Source of the DNA: Boletus sp. NGJ | Lineage: Eukaryota > Basidiomycota > Agaricomycetes > Boletales > Boletaceae | Assembly (NCBI GenBank): GCA_019096195.1 | Contig: JAGTXK010000091.1 | Span: 682,001 to 746,000 of the forward strand | Reading direction: 5' to 3' | Length of the DNA stretch: 64,000 bases | In this document: piece after piece, positions 1 to 30,638 of the stretch | How the letters are laid out: every line of letters starts with the position of its first letter | Numbering within the stretch: the stretch's first letter is position 1 | Notes under the pieces: model-generated | What the model was told of the DNA's origin: nothing | What the model saw: the letters and a program-made list of their open reading frames with translations, nothing else | The model's database searches: none | Translations under genes and position numbers: made by a program

Positions 1-2560
1 CGATTCATGTCACAGCGCTGTCAATTTGCCCTCCGACACGCCTCCCCTCCTCTCTCCGATGCCTCCATCAGATTCAGCTGCAGACCTTGGTGAGGAGGAG
101 ATCACCCTGGCCGCGAACCTCGACAAGTCGACAACGGCACCATCGCCCACTACGACTCCCGCCCAGCCAAAGACATCCACACCCGCAAGTCCCGCCCCCG
201 TCTATCTCCCTCGCCTAACTGCACCGAGCATGTTCCTTCCCATTCCGAATGTATGCCTGATTTTCCCACTCTCACACACCTTGGTGTGGTGGATGGCACG
301 AGGTGGTCCTCCGGAACTCATTCGGGGATTGAATCACCATTCGGGTCTCCGCAACCGAAACGAATCGCCGGTTGGTGCCACCCATTTCTACCCATTCCTT
401 TCGTCCCTTTTCTTTCGTTCGACCTTGCAGCTAACCTGTGATGTTTACAGACTGATCCCCCAAGTGCTCTTTTAACAAAGCATGTCCCCGCTGAACAAAG
501 GCCACGGAGGGACGTCGTAGGAGAGTATGCAGGTAGAGACGTTCATGACATGATCGTAAGTTGCATGCGCAAAGTTTCTTTTTCAATCCGCCGTACTTCA
601 TTGTCTTTCATCTCTCACATCTTCTCTCGTTACCATCAACATTCACACTACAGCTCTGTTTCTCGTATATGCATCCGATCTTTTATCACTTTATTTTGTC
701 TTTCCCTTCTGTTGTCTGTGCGAGTATCGAGCCTCCAGTTTTTCAGTCGCTGGCGGTCTCTTTATGTCTTGTATCCCCACAGTGTAGCGAGATACTATTA
801 AATGTGAAGCATCCACTGTCTTGTGCCTTCGTGCATTAACACCGCGCTGATTCGTGGACGAGAGAGTGGTACTATTCTAATGATTCGTTTCGGTAGATGT
901 CGAATTCATGGCGTGCCCTGGCAAAAATGGCACGCGACAGGATCGTAGCAAGTGACCCCGAGGATTTGGGCAGGATCTTGGACGTGAGTGTCACCTTGTG
1001 TCCTCGAGTCCGTAGCTCAATATTCAATCCTCGCTGCTAAGCTCTGGTCTCTTCGCCTCTCCTCGCTTGCTCGCCTCCGTCTGACGAACCAAGCCTCTGC
1101 AGAATGCACCAATTTGTTCGCAGTCCTCAACGCCGTACCCCCTACGTCCGTGCCCGGATCGTTCCCCGGCTCAGGTTCCTTGCCCCCCTCCGTACCCCTC
1201 CCTGCTTCCCCTACTCCCGCGGCATCTTTGTCCCTCTCCCCATCCGGCCTGAGTGGACTAGCTCAACTCCCCGGGACGCCCTCTCAAAAAGCGTCCCCCC
1301 TCCCCCCTCTGCCCCCCGGTGGGACCACGTCTGCGACGGCACCGCGACAAGGCGCCAACGAGCTCTTGCACCCGTTCGAGCTGACGGTGTTTCATGCGCG
1401 CGTGCATTATTGGTCGGGGGATCCGTTGGGGTATGTCGATGCGCTGAGTCGGATTTTAGGGCGCTGTAAGGAGAAGGCGAGGGAGGAGGGGCGGGTCGTT
1501 GCGCAGCGGAGGGAGAGGAGGGTGGTGGTTGGAGGTGATGTGGAAGGTTTAAGTCAGTCGGAGCGGGCGAACGAAGACGCCGATGAAGAGAGCACGGACG
1601 ACGCCAAAGTCCAAGGTAAGGAGGAGCTAGACGCCGTCCTCGTCGCAGCCGAAGCCAATCTGTCAATGTGGCTCGAACGCATCGCGAGGGTCTGCCTGAT
1701 TCTCGCAAGCCAGATGATTGAGATGAACGTAAGTACCCGTATCTTATTCCCCTCTTTCAAGAGTTGTCTCTTTTTGACATCCTTGTCGTTTTCCCTCACG
1801 CCGTTGGCATTTGCATTTGCCCTCGTAGGATTACCAAGCGGCGATCAACTTGCTCGTCCCACTCTGCACCTACCGCGTTCCACCCACCTTGGTGCCGACA
1901 CCTTCCCCGACCCTTCATTCGGCCCTCGCACGGATCTATCTTCTCTCTGGAAACCTCCGAAAAGCAGAGGAACACTTTTCCATCGCCACATCGGCCGCAG
2001 GAAACAGCGCCAACCGGACCGACATCCACATCGTAGTCATGAACACCGCGTTATTGGCCGCTGCGTCGGGCGAATGGACGCGTGCCGAAGAAGCACTCGG
2101 GGAGCTGGTCGCCAAAAACCCAGGGAACTTTACGGTGCGTGTGTGTTTTGGGACACAAGACCGGGGGTTCGCTGACTGTACGTCGGGGTGCCTAGGCGAT
2201 CAATAATCTCGCTGTCACGCTGTTGTGTCAGGGAAGAATCAAAGAGGTACGGAAAATGGGAAATGGCTAGTGGGGGAGCTGACGGAGGATGATGGGTACA
2301 GGGCATCGATCTCCTCGAAGCAGCGTTGAAGATGTCGCCTTCCTCCGTGGTCGTCGCAGAGCCCTTCCTGTTCAACTTGTGTATGTATTACTCCCCTTTT
2401 CCTTTTTTTTTTTTCGTTCGTTGACCTTGCCTGTACAGCCACCCTATACGAGCTTCGCTCGACTACCGCCATAGACAAGAAGCGCGAGCTCCTGCTCCAA
2501 GTTGCAAAGTGGAGCGGCGATGGCCTCAAAATGTCCTGCTTAAAGATGCCTTCGAGTTGA
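1..2560 (+). CDS. TRAPPC12-like TPR protein of the TRAPP complex (5' end probably outside the window)
   Basis: Eight exons join in one frame: up to 250, 451-555, 897-983, 1042-1728, 1829-2134, 2196-2246, 2302-2380 and 2439-2560. Landmarks are FLPIPN joined to TDPPSALLTKHVPAEQRPRR, then SNSWRALAKMARDRIVASDP, a Ser/Pro-rich linker, and C-terminal TPR-like helices (LARIYLLSGNLRKAEEHFS, AINNLAVTLLCQGRIKEGID). This order matches TRAPP subunit 12, a tethering-complex component acting in ER-Golgi and endosomal traffic. The frame is open from base 2 with no clear initiation context. An ATG at 59 is possible, but the true start probably lies upstream. The call rests on remembered family motifs. A different TPR trafficking subunit is the main alternative. 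Confidence 0.72.
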
Positions 2561-21246: not shown

Positions 21247-23090
21247 ATGGCCTCTTCTGTGTTCTACAAATTTAAATCTCAGAGGGACGAGTCTCGGGTG
21301 ACTTTTGATGGCACTGCGATCTCTGTGTTTGACTTGAAAAAAGAAATCATCCTTGCTAACAATCTCGGTAAGGCCAATGACTTTGATCTTTATGTCTATG
21401 ACGCGTCCACAAATCAGGGTACGTTCACTCCTGTAGCGCGTCCGAATTTTGACCCCCGTTGTCTACTTAGAATACCAGGATGACTCCCAAGTCATTCCGA
21501 GGTCATCCTCTGTGGTCGTAAAGCGTATGCCCTCTCAGCGTCCAGGCAAGGGAAAAGCAGCCATGTACATTGCTGGTACCAATGGAAGTACATCGGTTCC
21601 CATTTCTGAGCCCGTTCAGAGACTAGGTGGCAGCAGTGCATGGCACAAGGGTGCCATGTCAAAACGCTTCGACGTGAAAGAAGAATTTACGTCCTCCAAA
21701 GCTTCAGCTCCTGTACGTAGTTGTTCTAAACTGAACGCACTACTCGCCATCGGCGAGTCTTACACTCTTCGCAGTCGGGTACCCCAGTTACTATCCCAAA
21801 GAACTCGGTCACAAAGGAAGATGAAGCTGCTGCAATGGCTGCCATGTTTCAGGCCCAGACGGCCAACTGGGAGGAAACCCAGGAAAAGATGTCTCAGTTG
21901 GTGTCTCGTTTACGCGGTTCTTCTGCTTTGTGTAGTAGAGTGAAGTCTCATAACATGATTTCTTCTGTTTTACCCCCTTGATCGAAACAGTGCTGTTCGA
22001 ATATATAACCCTCGAGGGACGTCTTTCGGGCGCGGTGGGAAGCCCTCTGCTTCGCATCAGTCCCATGCTCCCGATCGTCCCTTGCCACCATCGTATGTAT
22101 GTTACCGTTGTGGTCAGAAAGGTGAGTTGCCGCGTCTTTGTCTTCTCATTGTTGCTTCATGTTCTTCCAGGGCATTGGATTCAAGACTGTCCGACGAATA
22201 GCGATCGCGAGTTCGACAACAAGCCTCGCATCAAGCGGACCACGGGTATCCCGCGCAGCTTCCTCAAGGCGGTGGAGAATCCTAACAAGGGTGAGATTGC
22301 CCAGGGCGTCATGGTCACCCCCGAGGGTGGCTATGTCGTCGCTCAACCTGATTCGTAAGTCACTGTATCCCATCGTTGAGAGGCAGTCACTCATTCTAGT
22401 AGAGCATCGTGGCAAAAGCAGGTATCTCGGTCGAAGGGCCTCTCCGTAGCAGACGTTCGAGAACGACCTCCGACAGACCCTACACTCGCGTGCCCAATAG
22501 ACAACAGACTTTTCCGTGATGCCGTGAAAACGCCGTGTTGTGAAACCACGTATTGCGAGGAGTGTATCCAGACTCATCTTCTTGAGCGTGACTTTGTTTG
22601 TCCAAAGTGTGGCAAGAAGATCCCATCTCTCGACAAGTTGGTCATGGATAAACCTATGCGAACAAAAGTTGCAGATCACATTGATAAGGTGATTGAGCAG
22701 AGCAGAAGGGAGATTGATGAAGAAGGTTTGACGAACTCCGGTGCGGTAGCCAGCGAACAGGTACTCGATTTTCATGCTACTCTCCAAGATTGCGATGCTA
22801 ACAACTGCTCACAGACACCTCAAGGGGACAGTTCTGTTACGGATGACTTCTATTCAGATCAACAGGCTGGCATGGACGTTTCCCAGATGATAGTCGACAG
22901 CATTCCTCAGCTTCAGGCTCAGATCAACCAGTTATCCATAATGATGCAAAACACCTCATTGCCCGACCATGTGCGACATTCTTCGGAGATGAAATATCAC
23001 CAACTTCAGATGCAGCTCCAACAAGCACAGGCCCTTGCGGCAACTCTCGCGGTCGCAACCACCCTTCAGCAGCAGCAACAACAGCAGCAG

Positions 23091-23122
<32 letters not shown>

Positions 23123-23354
23123 ACAACAGATGCAGAGCGCCGCTGGTGTAGTGGGCTATGGCATGCCGGGATACCAGCAAACAGACACACAGTGGCCAGT
23201 CTCGTTTACGAATCAACAACCTGCTAGTCAGGATTCAGCATATCAACGACTACCGCTCAATAATAGACGGCGAAATCTGAAACGCGAGCGTCCGTCAGAC
23301 TTTTTGGAGGTCGGCGGGGAGAGCGATAGCAAAGTTCCACGGTATTGGGAATGA
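21247..23354 (+). CDS. MPE1: Mpe1/RBBP6-type cleavage and polyadenylation factor subunit
   Basis: Several exons give the diagnostic order. An N-terminal DWNN ubiquitin-like domain (ASSVFYKFKSQRDESRVTFD through VVVKRMPSQRPGKGKAAMYI) is followed by a CCHC zinc knuckle (YVCYRCGQKGHWIQDCPTN) and its partner region (RTTGIPRSFLKAVENPNKGE). A RING/U-box (CPIDNRLFRDAVKTPCCETT, YCEECIQTHLLERDFVCPKC) comes next. The C-terminus is Gln-rich, with an uninterrupted run of about 22 Gln encoded by mixed CAA/CAG codons near 23070-23130. In yeast Mpe1 is an essential CPF subunit that senses poly(A) signals and activates 3'-end cleavage. The stop at 23354 lies 209 bases before the DNMT5 start on the same strand. 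Confidence 0.94.
23070..23131 (+). repeat. Polyglutamine-coding CAR repeat in MPE1
   Basis: A run of CAG and CAA codons in mixed order encodes about 22 consecutive Gln. The mixing suggests an older, fairly stable repeat, unlike a freshly expanded pure CAG tract. Confidence 0.9.
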
Positions 23355-23563: not shown

Positions 23564-26500
23564 ATGCCCAAGACAACGTCGCTCGCCAAAGACCAAAAGT
23601 CCATCGTTTCGTTCTTTGGTGGGGGCGACAAAAAGCCTGCGAAGTCCGCGGCCAAGAAAGCCGGAAAGTCAACGAAGAAAATCGACGACGAGTCCAGCGC
23701 TGAGGAGGTCGAGGACGATGCAGAACCCGAGGTTTCTGATGAAGATGACAGCCCAGCCCAGTACTCAAAGACAGATGGAAAGATAGAATCTTCCAATCTT
23801 CCACCTCTTCACCACATACCCACCATGTTTTCCGACCTCATCTCGCGCATTCCTCAGATCAAAGACGTCGCAGAACGCGTCAGAGGTAGAAAGCTTCGAG
23901 TCGCCACCATGTGTTCCGGCACAGAATCTCCTCTTCTTGCTCTGGATTTGATATCCCAGTCTATCCGAGAGCAGTATGGCATCCCGTTGGAGTTTGAACA
24001 CGTATTTTCATGCGAGATAGAGCCATTCAAGCAGGCCTACATCGAGCGCAATTTCCAACCACCCGTATTGTTTCGCGATGTGTGCGAGCTCGGAGACGTT
24101 GAAGCGTGCGTGCCCTTGTCCACAACTTGGCAGGAATCTGACATCAATCTACAGCACGACTGCATATGGCGCATTAGCCCCTGTCCCTGGTGATGCGGAT
24201 TTGCTTGTTGCGGGCACATCTTGCGTCGACTATTCCAATCTCAACAACGAGAAAAAAGGAATTGACGGAGGAGGAGAGTCAGGGCGAACGTTTCACGGTA
24301 TGATGTCTTGGGTCACCAACCATCGACCACCTATGGTCATTCTAGAGAACGTCTGCTCTGCGCCATGGGAGAAAGTCAAGGAGTTTTTTGGACGTCAGAA
24401 CTATAGTGCTGAGTTTATGCGATTGGACACGAAACAATTCTATATCCCACACACTCGTACCCGTGTTTACTTGCTCGCTGTCGACCAGCGAGCGTCCAAG
24501 TTACCAACTGCTTGGAAGGATTGGGTCACAAACAAACTAAAGCGCCCTGCTTCATCGACTTTGGATGCATTTCTTCTCCCATCAGATGATACGCGCATTC
24601 ATCAAGCTAGAGAGATGCTTGTTCAAGCTGGTGGCGGTGTGTCGGACTCGCGCGCTGGACGAATTGACTGGACGAGGTGCGAATCTAGACATGCGCGAGC
24701 CAGGCTCGAGGAGTTACTAGGTCCGAAACGTCACCTGACAAACTGGGAGGAAGGTGAGCGTCTTGCATTGGTTTGCGAGCCATTATTTCAACCTCGTGAA
24801 TGTAAGGTGGCACTTGTCGTATGCCTGATTTCGCTTGGCAAGATTGGGGAATACGACAAGTCGAACGTGTTTGGGATTTGATGGACATCAATCTCCTTCG
24901 TTCTGCCAAGATTGGCGTCGATCCATCCTACAAAACGTGAGTGAAAAACTCAAAACACATTGGTAGTGTAGTCCGCGCTAACATCTATCTCAGACTTGTC
25001 TGGAATTTGTCGCAAAATGTCGATCGTTCTACCGGCTCGAGCAAGACGGGTATATGTCCATGCCTTACTCCATCTATGATTCCCTATATCACCAATCGCG
25101 GTGGACCCATGGTCGGAGTCGAGGCATTGGCTATGCAGGGTCTTCCAGTGGACAAGCTGCTTCTTACACGAGAAAGCCAGGATGAACTCGCCGATCTCGC
25201 TGGTAATGCCATGTCTTCAACAGTCGTGGGGTCTTGTATACTTGCCGCATTGGTTGTCTGCAAAGGGCTTCTGAAGGAGGGGGATGATAAGGAGACTTAC
25301 GAGATGATGAAGAAGCTCGAAGTCGGATCTCAAGTAAGAGACGAGGATGCTATGGATGTCGATTCCAGACCAAAAACCGCTGTAGGAGACCGGATTTCTG
25401 GCGTTGAGCAGTTGGCCGAACAACCGTTGGACTTGTCCAACGTGAAGATGGACTCAGTGAAGGACGTTCTCGAGCACGCGACCCGAAGTATACGGCTCTG
25501 CCTCTGCGAGGGTCGCAAGGATATCACGACAAGGGAGCTACTTCGCTGCCAGGACTGTGGTTCGTCTTCCTGCAAGAAATGTGCTGGGCGTCCCGAACAC
25601 AATTTCGGACCGCTCGATGTGCAGACAGTCGCACGTATTCCTCCTGGGTCTTTCGTCAGGGAGCTCAAATCCGTCCTTCCCATGTGCTTGTCGATCACTA
25701 ACGCCACCGCAGAACTCCTTGACGATTTAAGATCCGCGTGCAACGTAACTATACCTGAGAAGCAATGGGTTAGTTGGCGTTCTGCAGTGGTTCGGGCCAC
25801 GAGCTCGGAGTTGCGTTTCGTGGAGCTCAAGAGACAAGAACTCTGGTCTGCAGTCTACCAATCCACATCAGCTTCTTTCGAGCTGTACCTAGACCCCAAG
25901 CAGACGGAGTGGCGACTGTATGCGATTCCTCTAGAGAGCGAACCTGCGAATGCAGAAATTCGTCGTCTCTTACAGCTTCCTGTTGCTAGATTCAAATGCC
26001 AGGGCGGCCTGTTGCAGGGTCATTGGCAGTTCGCTTTGCCCTCCAACAGCGAGATCACTGTGACTGTGACTGGGAGCGGGACGCTTGTGCCTTCCTGGGG
26101 GTCCCGGCTTGGCTTGTTGGCTGAAGAATTCAGGGAGGGTCGTGTCCATTCACATCTGAGAATTACTGTACCGGCAGGCAAGGTGTCTTTACTCGATCGT
26201 GACATCTCTGGGACGTATGCCCTCCTGGACAAGTGCGGTACAGCCTGTGGCGCTCTTCATACGCGCGAGCCTACTCCTGAGGACACCGAACTTCCGCCCT
26301 TGTTCATGATGCTCGACCCCACGCGTTGTGGCGATCCCAAAGACGACGCGTTCGTTTTCACCACTACCATTCGAAGATACGACTATGGCGAGTTCCGGCC
26401 GATTATCTGCAAACTCGCTGGTTCGTGGAGACAGTCGGATGTTCAGGGAGATCAAAAGGTCACCTGCCACGTATCCGTATTATGGGTATCTTCAGACAAA

Positions 26501-29500
26501 GTGTCGCTCCAGGTAAACTTGCATAAGTTTTATTTGTCCTGCGCTAGTGATCACGTATTTTGTAGTCTTCCCAGCTCACTGGAGCACATTTCGCCGTTCC
26601 TCGGGGTTCGTTGGACGTGGCTGTCAACACAGACGCTTGTGTCAGAGCCGTTGCTTTGTTGTCTTGCACGGTGCCTCTTCCCGATGATGCTGGTCCCGAG
26701 TGGCCGCGTCAGGAATGGAGGGAAGTCGACAAGCTCAATGAGCGCACGACGTTTAGGTCATTGGCCTGGCTGCTCGAACGCATCCGACACGTCGATGACA
26801 ATTTACATGTGTGGCAGACAACCGACATGCCCGAGGATCTGCACCAATGCCAACGGTGTGCTCCGACGCCTCCCACCATCAAGTGGAGTAAGACTGGAAA
26901 GAAAATTGTCGCCATCGAGGATTCGCAAGAGGCTGGGCAATACGAACGCGATCTGAAGCTTCGTCCCAATCCATTCGTCACTCAACTACGTTTGGAACAG
27001 AACACCGGTATGGTTAAAGTAGGTCTCAACATCGCTTCGTTGTTACATCGTGCCCTGTCCCGCCTTCCTTCGGAGAATCGTCCGGAACGACCTTCACTGT
27101 CATGGCGTCTGGACACCGACTTTGCTCCTGCGGTCAAGATTCAACACCCGCCGTTCACGCTCCAGAGTAACAGGGCTGACCCAGAACACAGTCAGCCGCC
27201 CAATTTCAAGCTCGACCTTCGTAAGGAGCAGTTGCGTTCCTTAACCTGGATGCTGGAGCGGGAGGCCCATGACGTTGCTCCATTTATCGAAGAAGAAATC
27301 TCGGAGGCGACTCTCGAGCCTCTTGGTTGGCGTGCAGAGGGTCGCGCACAAAGACCTGTCAAAGTCAGGGGTGGTGTCCTCGCCGACCAAGTTGGATATG
27401 GAAAGACCGCCATTACCCTTGGTCTCATCGATTGCTCCTATCAAAAGGTCAGAAAGGAGTTCGAGAGCAAGAAAGACAATCTCGGCAAGGTTGCTGTAAA
27501 AGCTACGTTAGCCATCGTTCCACCACATCTCACTCGGCAATGGAGGTCAGAGTCCGAAAAGTTCGCGCCGGGCCGCTTCAAAAAAGTGGTGGTCATCTCC
27601 ACCGCCACTAATATTAACTCGTTGACCATCGAGAAGGTTCAGGAGGCCGATCTCGTGATCGTCGCGTCGAATTTGTTCCAGAGTGCTGTTTACCTGGGGA
27701 ATCTCGAGTCCTTCGCCGCTGGGGGTGCGCTTCCATCTCAAGACGGTCGATATTTCAACGCTCGGCTCGAGATATGTCTGGAAGCCTTGAAGAAGCAGGT
27801 GGAACGCCTGAAAAATGACGGTGCTAACAGTGTCATGAAAACGATACGAGAGGCACGCAGACAGGGTAAGTTGGCTTCTCGTCCTGCTCGGGTTGTAGCG
27901 GCTGATATTTCGTTTCAGAGGAAGAATTGGAGTCTCAATTTTTCGTAGCCCCGAAACGCCTCAAGGGCAAGTCTTACGCTGTTGCTGTGGAGAAGAAAGA
28001 CCAGGACACGAAACCCGTGGCTAAGCCCAGTTCCTCGATAGAACACTTCCCTGCCAAGCCCACGCGGGCAGGCAAGACGCCCGAGGTCGTCCTCAATGCT
28101 CCGAAGTCAAAGAAATGGAAGGTTGTGGAGACGGATGACACCTCAGATGTGGAAGTTGCTGCGTCCCATGCATCAAGGCCCAAGCGGGGGACCACTAGAA
28201 ATGCGATCGCCATTGATTCTGACGATGACGCGGACGGTGATGATGGCAGTGATTACGAGGACAATGGCGTAGCAGACGAGCCCGAAGAAGAGCCTGCTTC
28301 CAGTGATGGGGAACATCTGCCTAGCGTTAAGAAATCCGGGATTTCTCGTGGTAAACCTACTCCCCCACCCACGTCAGAGGAATCGACAATCGAAATATCT
28401 GACGATGACGAAGAAGAGAAGAAACCGCAGAAACGCAAGCCTAACGCGAAGGCGACCAGTAACAAAGGCAAGGCAAAGGCAAATACCAGTTCGTCGAAAT
28501 CCGATGACGACAGTATGGACGTCGACGAACCACCCTCTTCACCATCCTCCGAAAAGTCGGGTGGAATGAAGAGAAAGGCAGCGAGTACCAAGCACGCACC
28601 AGCCAAGAAACAGAAACGCCGAGAGGACACCGACCCTTGGCACCTTGAAAGCGTCACTGTCAAGAGGGATTGGACGAAAATGCAATCACCGCCCTTAGAG
28701 ATCTTCCACTTCGCCCGTGTTGTCGTCGACGAGTATACATATTTGACTGGAAAGGTACATTCTATGGTTACGAAGCTCACTGCAGATCGTCGCTGGGTAC
28801 TGTCTGGTACGCCGCCTATCCACGACTTTGGTGCTGTCAAGACGATCGCGGCCCATCTGAACCTTCGCTTGGGTATCGACGATGACGGAGAGGGGCATTC
28901 AGCTATGATCAAGAAGCGCATCAGGGAGCAAACAAGTGCGTTCTAAGCATCTCTTACAATTTCATGTGACTGACAGTTATCTACAGAGGTGGAAGCTTTC
29001 CACTCCTTTCGTGACGTCCATACGCAAGAATGGCACGCCCACCGTCATCACATTGGCCAAATTTTCTTGGACATGTTTGTTCGTCAGGTTCGCATCGTTT
29101 CTTCCATCTCAAGTACATCACTTGCTAAGATTGTAATGCAGAACATCGCTGAGATCGATGAGATTCCATGCTCACTTGAAGTACAAAAGGTGATGCTCCC
29201 CGCTGCAGAACGCGCTATCTATCTGGAGCTGGAGCACCACTTGCGTGCGCTAGACATGACCATAAAGCGGACGAAGAAGACCGAGAGTGACCGAGAAAAG
29301 CGTTTAAACAATGCACTCGGTGACAGCAAGTACGTTTTAACAACTTCAAATTTTAAAGGTGTCTTATCGACCATTGTCAGGACCGCGGAGGAAGCACTTT
29401 TGAAACGCTGCTCCCATTTCGACTTGGATACTTCCGAAGAAAACTCCAAGGAGAATGCTATGAAGGCTTGTGAAATCATCGTCAAGGATCGTACGAAGCA

Positions 29501-30638
29501 ACTGGATGACTGTAGAGATGAACTCCTTCAGGAACTTGAGAAGGGTGTCGAGCGTGAAAAGAGGATCGGCAGGCTCAACGAGGAATCCATGTTCCAAGAA
29601 TATGCTCGCGTTACCCGTCTGGAAGGTGTCGGGGATCACGAAGCAACGGAGATGGTTGAAGCTCTCCTTGACGAAGCTGAAGTCCCCGTCCTGGCCGCGA
29701 ATTACTGGAAGAACAAGTCCAAAGGGAAAGACGAAAGCCTGTCGAACTCAACCAAGGATCTCATCTGGGACCACCGCGAGAAGACGCACAACATCCGCAA
29801 GTTGACCAAGGAACTTGTCGGACGAGTACGTTCCCGTCGATATTTCACGATCGTGCGTGACCTGCAAAAGCAGCGAGAAACGCCTCCAAAGATCTCGTGT
29901 CCTGGATGTGGTAGAGAAGAAGTTCCGATGGACGAAGTCGCCGTTCTCTCGTCTTGTGGGCACACGGGTTGTATGACGTGTGTCAGACAGAGTGCGGATC
30001 GCGAGGAGTGCGTTTACGCAGCTTCTGGAAAATGCAAGGCCGCTGCAAGGGTCCTGAATATCGTCAAGGGGGAGACACTTGGTGTCGATGACGAAGCTCG
30101 CGATGGGCTTGGCAAGCATTATGGGAAGAAATTGGAAATGGTCATCGACTTGATCAAGTGGGTTGCCTTGCTACGTACTCTGCTTCACACTGACCCATAG
30201 CTTTGGTACTGCAGAAAAACGATCCCTAAGAAGGAGCGTGTGCTCATCTTTGTCCAATTCCAGGACCTCATGGCTAAAGTCGCCAACGCACTCAAGGCGC
30301 ACAAGATCAAGTTCCTCGAAATACGTGGCTCCGCGTCACAGAAGAGTAAAAACCTGGAAAAGTACCAGAACAACGATGGCGAAGAGCGAGTGCTCCTCCT
30401 GAATGTCATGGACGAAAGTGCCAGCGGTGCGAACCTCACCTCTGCCAACCACGCCATATTCCTCTCGCCACTACTCGCGCCGAGTCAGGAGATCTATGAT
30501 GCTTGTGAGACGCAAGCAGTCGGTCGGTTGAGGCGGTACGGACAAGAGAAGCATGTCAGGATCTGGGCCTTCCTGACGCTAGACACCATCGACGTCGAGA
30601 TCTACGAGCAAAGGATGAAGAAGAAAGTATCTACCTAG
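23564..30638 (+). CDS. DNMT5: DNMT5: cytosine-5 DNA methyltransferase fused to RING and SNF2 ATPase
   Basis: Ten exons (23564-24105, 24155-24753, 24807-24936, 24994-26512, 26566-27865, 27919-28935, 28987-29087, 29142-29329, 29381-30157, 30215-30638) agree in phase and give about 2,198 residues. Order: QKSIVSFF motif near residue 11; acidic linker; methyltransferase motif I (LRVATMCSGTESPLLALDL), motif IV as GTSCVDYSNLN, motif VI VILENV, and target-side NRGGPMVGVEALAMQGLP; a Cys-rich patch (CQDCGSSSCKKC); SNF2 motif I (GGVLADQVGYGKTAITLGL), a long charged insert, motif II VVVDEYTYL, motif III LSGTPP; RING (CPGCGREEV, SSCGHTGCMTC); and helicase motif VI (QAVGRLRRYGQEK). DNMT5 is the ATP-dependent CpG maintenance enzyme known from Cryptococcus. 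No chromodomain is visible at the N-terminus here. Confidence 0.95.

Follow-up and report, generated by a model that had tools for sequence, protein, structure and literature searches.

The DNMT5 locus

The window, a stretch of 64,000 nucleotides of the Boletus sp. NGJ genome, contains a forward-strand gene that, judged by its sequence, encodes DNMT5, with a cytosine methyltransferase and an SNF2 ATPase in one protein (Table 1). The gene model was made by manual splicing at GT-AG sites while the frame was held open. This gave nine introns of 49-57 bases and a 2,198-residue protein without internal stop; for the last intron another placement is possible. The initial annotation had named the gene DNMT5, and the identity was confirmed. 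A phmmer search with the first 1,200 residues aligned residues 76-1200 to Cryptococcus DNMT5 (PDB 7r76) at a score of 1,094 bits, and the Pfam profiles DNA_methylase, SNF2-rel_dom and Helicase_C all scored above cut-off in the one hand-spliced protein. The segments AGTSCVDYSNLNN and ILENVC align to 7r76, and GGVLADQVGYGKTA was found in the protein as well. The AGTSC, ENV and Walker A sequences, which we take to be the catalytic motifs, are all kept.

DNMT5 is a single-copy gene: a search of the genome (32.8 Mb, 141 contigs) with the first 535 residues matched its own gene only. One scan each of a viral and a prokaryote collection gave 82 and 47 pattern matches, respectively, with no DNMT5 relatives among them. 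The SNF2 part of the protein is split by a long low-complexity acidic/basic stretch (window ~27950-28640, approximately residues 1370-1610) that precedes the DEYTY sequence. The upstream neighbour is a forward-strand frame (window 22380-23354) with a RING-like cysteine block followed by a long polyglutamine run, and its stop lies 209 bp before the DNMT5 ATG.

Table 1. Features of the DNMT5 gene, in window coordinates.
Feature	Position	Residues	Strand	Evidence or remark
DNMT5 gene	23564-30638	2,198 aa	+	10 exons; hand-made model
Introns 1-5	24106-24154, 24754-24806, 24937-24993, 26513-26565, 27866-27918		+	GT-AG
Introns 6-9	28936-28986, 29088-29141, 29330-29380, 30158-30214		+	GT-AG
PIP-box-like motif QKSIVSFF	23594-23617	11-18	+	read directly from the sequence
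Lysine-rich tract KKPAKSAAKKAGKSTKK	23630-23680	23-39	+	sequence
Acidic linker	23684-23749	41-62	+	sequence
Start of conservation with Cryptococcus DNMT5	23789-23827	76 on	+	phmmer, query 76 against 7r76 chain 283
C5-cytosine methyltransferase match	23990-24539	143-309	+	PF00145, E 2.8e-10; spans intron 1
SNF2 ATPase match, best stretch	27229-27663	1152-1296	+	PF00176, E 1.1e-14
RING-like zinc finger	29898-30011	1972-2009	+	PF14634, 17.1 bits, below the cut-off of 27.9
Helicase C-lobe	30129-30542	2049-2167	+	PF00271, E 3.2e-7; interrupted by the last intron

Start codon and translation of the N-terminal tail

The motif discussed below lies close to the first methionine, and the initial annotation had considered that the start codon might lie downstream of it. 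Methionines occur at positions 1, 88 and 116 of the first 120 residues. Since the region similar to the Cryptococcus protein sets in at residue 76, which is 12 residues ahead of Met88, translation should start upstream of residue 88. Going upstream from Met88 to the first in-frame stop, the only ATG in frame is that of the gene model, which has A at position -3. With codon usage in the remainder of the gene as the reference, the 225 bases at the start of the coding sequence scored +0.278 per codon; the 225-base blocks of the remaining gene, which served as the training set of the score, had a median of 0.177 and a minimum of 0.034. The other frames of the same stretch scored -0.20 and -0.26 (forward) and 0.00, 0.10 and -0.06 (reverse). 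The homology and the coding-like usage of the tail both speak against a start at Met88, which was rejected, and the start at position 23564 with a translated tail is well supported at the sequence level.

An upstream exon hiding a chromodomain was also considered and rejected. The gap between the stop of the neighbouring frame (23354) and the ATG is only 209 bp long and looks non-coding by codon usage in its three forward frames, with scores of -0.21 to -0.41. A small exon ahead of the ATG may nevertheless exist.

The PIP-box-like motif and its surroundings

The tail reads MPKTTSLAKD-QKSIVSFF-GGGDKKPAKSAAKKAGKSTKK and is acidic thereafter. As the initial annotation had proposed, the octamer at residues 11-18 fits the PCNA-interacting (PIP) box by direct reading: all four anchors are present, with Q at 1, an aliphatic residue at 4 and aromatics at 7 and 8. 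It is the sole match to the strict or canonical pattern, the latter being Q..[ILM]..[FY][FY], in the entire protein, and a relaxed pattern that also allows V, W and H adds only QTKVEAFH at residue 1701. The two phenylalanines of the motif (F17 and F18) are the only ones within residues 1-75, where Y67 is the sole further aromatic residue.

The glycines and basic stretch that had been noted behind the motif were found as well, the octamer being directly followed by G-G-G-D-K-K-P-A-K-S-A-A-K-K-A-G-K-S-T-K-K. The lysine-rich tract at residues 23-39 probably forms a basic flank of the motif, a nuclear localisation signal, or both. The net charge is +1 for the motif with 5-residue flanks, which include D10 and D22, +2 with 7-residue flanks and +8 across residues 1-38; the net charge per residue (NCPR) is +0.09 with 7-residue flanks and +0.21 for residues 1-38. 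The near flanks are thus only mildly basic, which counts against reading the octamer as a PIP box, as does the fact that such an octamer in a single sequence can be due to chance.

The octamer could accordingly be a chance match or lack a function, in a charged tail that evolves fast and serves only as nuclear localisation signal and DNA-binding leader. This explanation is unlikely, though it deserves weight. It agrees with the composition of the tail, a lysine-rich sequence of low complexity that matched nothing in the PDB at E 10, and with the Pfam search, in which no domain passed its cut-off in residues 1-109. On the other hand, a purely charged tail has no need of Q-x-x-I-x-x-F-F, and the confinement of phenylalanine to F17 and F18 does not follow from charge.

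Expectation by chance

By chance, residues 1-40 would contain a canonical match with a probability of 3.3e-4 given the composition of DNMT5 and 5.0e-4 given that of the window frames. These values, for an enzyme whose substrate is newly replicated DNA, speak against a chance origin. Because the corresponding figure for a match anywhere in the protein is 2-3%, it is the N-terminal position that carries weight. Shuffling residues 2-75 of DNMT5 200,000 times produced 20 canonical and 4 strict matches. The window contains 141 ATG frames that are 80 residues or longer, most of which are not genes, and in one of them, DNMT5 itself, a canonical or relaxed match occurred within the first 40 residues. 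All these figures exaggerate the surprise, since the motif was picked after reading and other motifs or genes could have caught attention.

Short motifs are also frequent, which favours the chance explanation: the strict pattern occurs at 223 places genome-wide at the DNA level. Thirty of these were examined with introns ignored, and one (L030) lay in a frame of at least 100 residues with a Met at most 40 residues upstream, this Met not being the first of its frame. The reversed pattern was found at 104 places, a difference that carries no inference as the reversal alters codon make-up.

Comparison with known PIP boxes and related motifs

The accessible part of one study (PMC6881253) reports a KD of 34 µM for human PCNA and the UNG2-variant PIP QKTLYSFF, and binding of PCNA at 3 µM by QSTLYSFF of MSH6. 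According to the same portion of that source, affinity rises with positive flanks, and canonical matches can prove false positives where the flanks misfit. QKSIVSFF is identical to the UNG2 variant at 5 of 8 positions, and by analogy the two affinities suggest what the DNMT5 octamer might do. The N-terminal PIP boxes of MSH6, UNG2, MSH3 and DNA ligase 1 resemble the DNMT5 arrangement in that the octamer lies near the first Met with basic residues nearby, and the SFF ending is common to the MSH6, UNG2, MSH3 and DNMT5 motifs. These four are replication or repair enzymes and, unlike DNMT5, none is a DNA methyltransferase.

Two further explanations start from the same octamer. The motif might bind another partner, as a REV1-interacting region (RIR) or an MLH1-type peptide (MIP), or it might bind PCNA in repair synthesis instead of at forks. 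The RIR pattern is xFFxxxx, for which Q at 1 and I at 4 are dispensable, and the MIP pattern is [RK]S[KR][YF]F. The FF followed by G-G-G-D satisfies the loose RIR pattern, and PIP, RIR and MIP motifs may overlap, as stated in the available text of PMC6881253. The presence of both Q at 1 and I at 4 argues against this explanation, as does the misfit of SIVSFF to the MIP pattern, and we consider it improbable.

The same octamer is also used by PIP degrons, through which CRL4-Cdt2 would destroy DNMT5 on PCNA-loaded DNA in S phase. A PIP degron needs TD at box positions 5-6, where DNMT5 has VS. It also needs a basic residue at +4, as given in the accessible part of PMC6881253, and this position is Asp in DNMT5. 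Although the Cdt2 substrates listed in the portion available of PMC11763709 include a chromatin methyltransferase, PR-Set7/SET8, a degron is largely excluded by the sequence and would be very surprising here.

Comparison with Cryptococcus DNMT5 and with PCNA-recruited methyltransferases

Cryptococcus neoformans DNMT5 (PDB 7r76/7r77/7r78/7t02, listed in the PDB as DNA repair protein Rad8) has the same methyltransferase-SNF2 architecture. The two proteins differ ahead of the common block, which is preceded by 282 residues in the 7r76 chain and by 75 in Boletus DNMT5. In the review PMC13297926, as far as its text was accessible, the chromodomain of the Cryptococcus protein is described as engaging the H3 tail; we take an N-terminal chromodomain as a feature of that protein, not of the entire DNMT5 family. 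The initial annotation had seen no chromodomain in the Boletus protein. This agrees with Pfam searches of the whole protein at E 0.1 and of residues 1-109 at E 10, which detected none at a sensitivity that was not calibrated on the Cryptococcus chromodomain. Boletus DNMT5 thus carries a PIP-like motif without a Pfam chromodomain, whereas the Cryptococcus enzyme has the chromodomain.

Mammalian DNMT1, like DNMT5, maintains CpG methylation and carries a PIP-type element, which lies in a disordered region in DNMT1 and in a charged, possibly disordered tail in DNMT5. DNMT1 binds PCNA through one of its segments, and the accessible part of PMC12474915 cites a structure in which its PIP box is complexed with PCNA. 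The architectures differ, as DNMT1 contains RFTS, CXXC and BAH domains (same portion of PMC12474915). The PIP boxes are also placed differently: that of DNMT1 is found midway along an extended disordered segment (PMC6881253, in the part available), that of DNMT5 within the first 18 residues. UHRF1 and PAF15 assist DNMT1, according to the available text of PMC11343034. The initial annotation viewed a PCNA link on DNMT5 as convergent with DNMT1, and if the link exists it would probably be so. That this convergence is unique is made less likely by the Tetrahymena AMT6 6mA complex, an independent case of a maintenance DNA methyltransferase reportedly recruited by PCNA (PMC13297926, accessible portion). 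AMT6 is an MT-A70 enzyme that methylates adenine in a ciliate, whereas DNMT5 is a cytosine methyltransferase.

PCNA and candidate clients in the same genome

A search of the genome for PCNA gave one match, and the exons retrieved there match PCNA structures. They read AMDNSHV, DSENLGIPD and NDVPLLV in what we presume to be the pocket segments of PCNA.

MSH3 and DNA ligase 1 are PCNA clients elsewhere. As internal controls, a small set of seven ligase and MutS loci (L057-L063) was fetched. In two of the seven, the gene strand carried a match to the relaxed PIP pattern close to a Met, and at four no PIP match near a Met was found. The two positive loci were the MutS gene most like MSH3, which begins MKRKTVIGLSGTDK-QPRISSFF with the motif at residue 15, and a ligase-1-like gene with QAILDAYF 33 residues past a Met. 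Upstream of the gene that most resembles DNA ligase 1 lies a frame, MPKNAKPTPPQQSSLAEMWGAGKTKRK (MPKNAKPTPPQ-QSSLAEMW-GAGKTKRK), with three of the four PIP anchors, and this frame probably belongs to the gene. Its layout resembles that of the DNMT5 tail, MPKTTSLAKDQKSIVSFFGGGDKKP. Judged from these sequences, the DNMT5 tail follows the same plan as the MSH3 and ligase N-termini of the same genome. The small number of controls and the four negative loci count against a PCNA tether.

Other methyltransferase loci

The genome also contains a DNMT1-RFD match of 36.1 bits (L066, contig C22). The presence of DNMT1-RFD together with DNMT5 is the situation described for Agaricomycotina, and the DNMT1-RFD class is placed at replication sites, both in the accessible part of PMC13297926. 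Since a gene of this class is present, any tie of DNMT5 to PCNA may be redundant. A BAH match, scoring 40.5 bits, was found at L065 on contig C45, where L064 has a stretch in common with it.

The relaxed PIP pattern was not found on the gene strand of the stretches fetched for L064, L065 and L066, and residues 1-120 of the L066 frame contain no octamer with even three of the four anchors. At the SRA loci (L067-L070) the only relaxed match was QIVLCCFW in L069, which was set aside as outside any gene because it lies in a 32-residue frame without Met. These scans are blind to motifs split by introns and to first exons beyond the fetched stretches.

A possible PCNA tether on DNMT5

The presence of all four anchors, the low chance of an N-terminal match, the support for the start codon, and the occurrence of PCNA and similar client motifs in the same genome favour reading the octamer as a PIP box. 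On these grounds we consider that the N-terminal PIP box of DNMT5 is probably a working PCNA tether, with a probability of roughly 0.7. The flexible tail would dock QKSIVSFF in the PIP pocket of PCNA rings that remain on newly copied DNA, and the lysine-rich tract would contribute electrostatic pull. The tether would then keep DNMT5 at newly made daughter duplexes, the place where CpGs become hemimethylated, so that the SNF2-gated active site could copy the methylation mark. Such a tether might replace the chromodomain used by Cryptococcus DNMT5 or work beside it. The binding of DNMT5 to PCNA and its recruitment to forks, both put forward by the initial annotation, are inferred from the sequence, as are recruitment in S phase and an effect on methylation.

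This differs from the 2026 review PMC13297926, whose accessible text describes DNMT5 as independent of the replication apparatus and states that experiments have yet to resolve what DNMT5 and DNMT1-RFD each contribute in Basidiomycota. PCNA is not reported as a DNMT5 partner in the available parts of the literature naming both, which includes PMC13297926, PMC10538959 and PMC11343034. A PIP motif on DNMT5 was likewise not mentioned in the literature searched, as far as its texts were accessible, a body that mostly excludes subscription papers and perhaps the hyphenated spelling. DNMT5 and the N-terminal PIP box are each already known, and a PIP box on DNMT5 appears to be a new reading within this literature.

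If the tether exists, it would provide a direct path from the fork to remethylation, and the link to replication would fall on the unexpected enzyme, DNMT5. It would also mean that deleting eight residues could part replication-coupled from chromatin-coupled maintenance. More tentatively, and with somewhat more doubt than confidence, the sequence comparison raises the idea that in mushroom-forming fungi, or in one lineage of them, DNMT5 and not the DNMT1-type enzymes ties maintenance methylation to the clamp. Chromodomain-guided DNMT5, as in Cryptococcus, and PCNA-guided DNMT5 might then be two alternative targeting modes of a single ATP-dependent methyltransferase, acquired or lost through a swap of the N-terminal tail.

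Additional observations

The PCNA gene (L010, G000:C97:130023-133253) encodes a highly charged insertion of ~115 residues with D/E and K runs at bases 2013-2410. It sits between the conserved ...GSVLLKQ and GGVFIEMNQ and consists of 100 + 17 residues in two frames, with a probable intron joining them. A similar insertion is said to occur in the PCNA of Coprinus cinereus. PCNA and four SRA-domain matches, three of them over cut-off, lie within ~8 kb on one contig (G000:C97:131523-139255; L010, L070), and the four matches look like two tandem SRA genes.

The matches at L064 and L065 (G000:C45) are ~28 kb apart and both contain SIPKPHRYQLRCGLLQAAHYGTPQRRVRFFLIAAKRG, and the L064 match crosses seven stops, which may reflect introns or decay. 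From their sequences the two loci are a duplication, with one copy perhaps degenerate.

At L031 (G000:C13:110239, ~1411-1608) a frame that follows another frame ends in QRSIREFFGGGGAKRPVEALEHAESNALDEVGSPRM and a stop. The preceding frame resembles what we presume to be a histidine-phosphatase (phosphoglycerate-mutase-like) protein, and QRSIREFFGGGGAKRPVEALEHAESNALDEVGSPRM could be a PIP box at the C-terminus of a protein where none would be expected.
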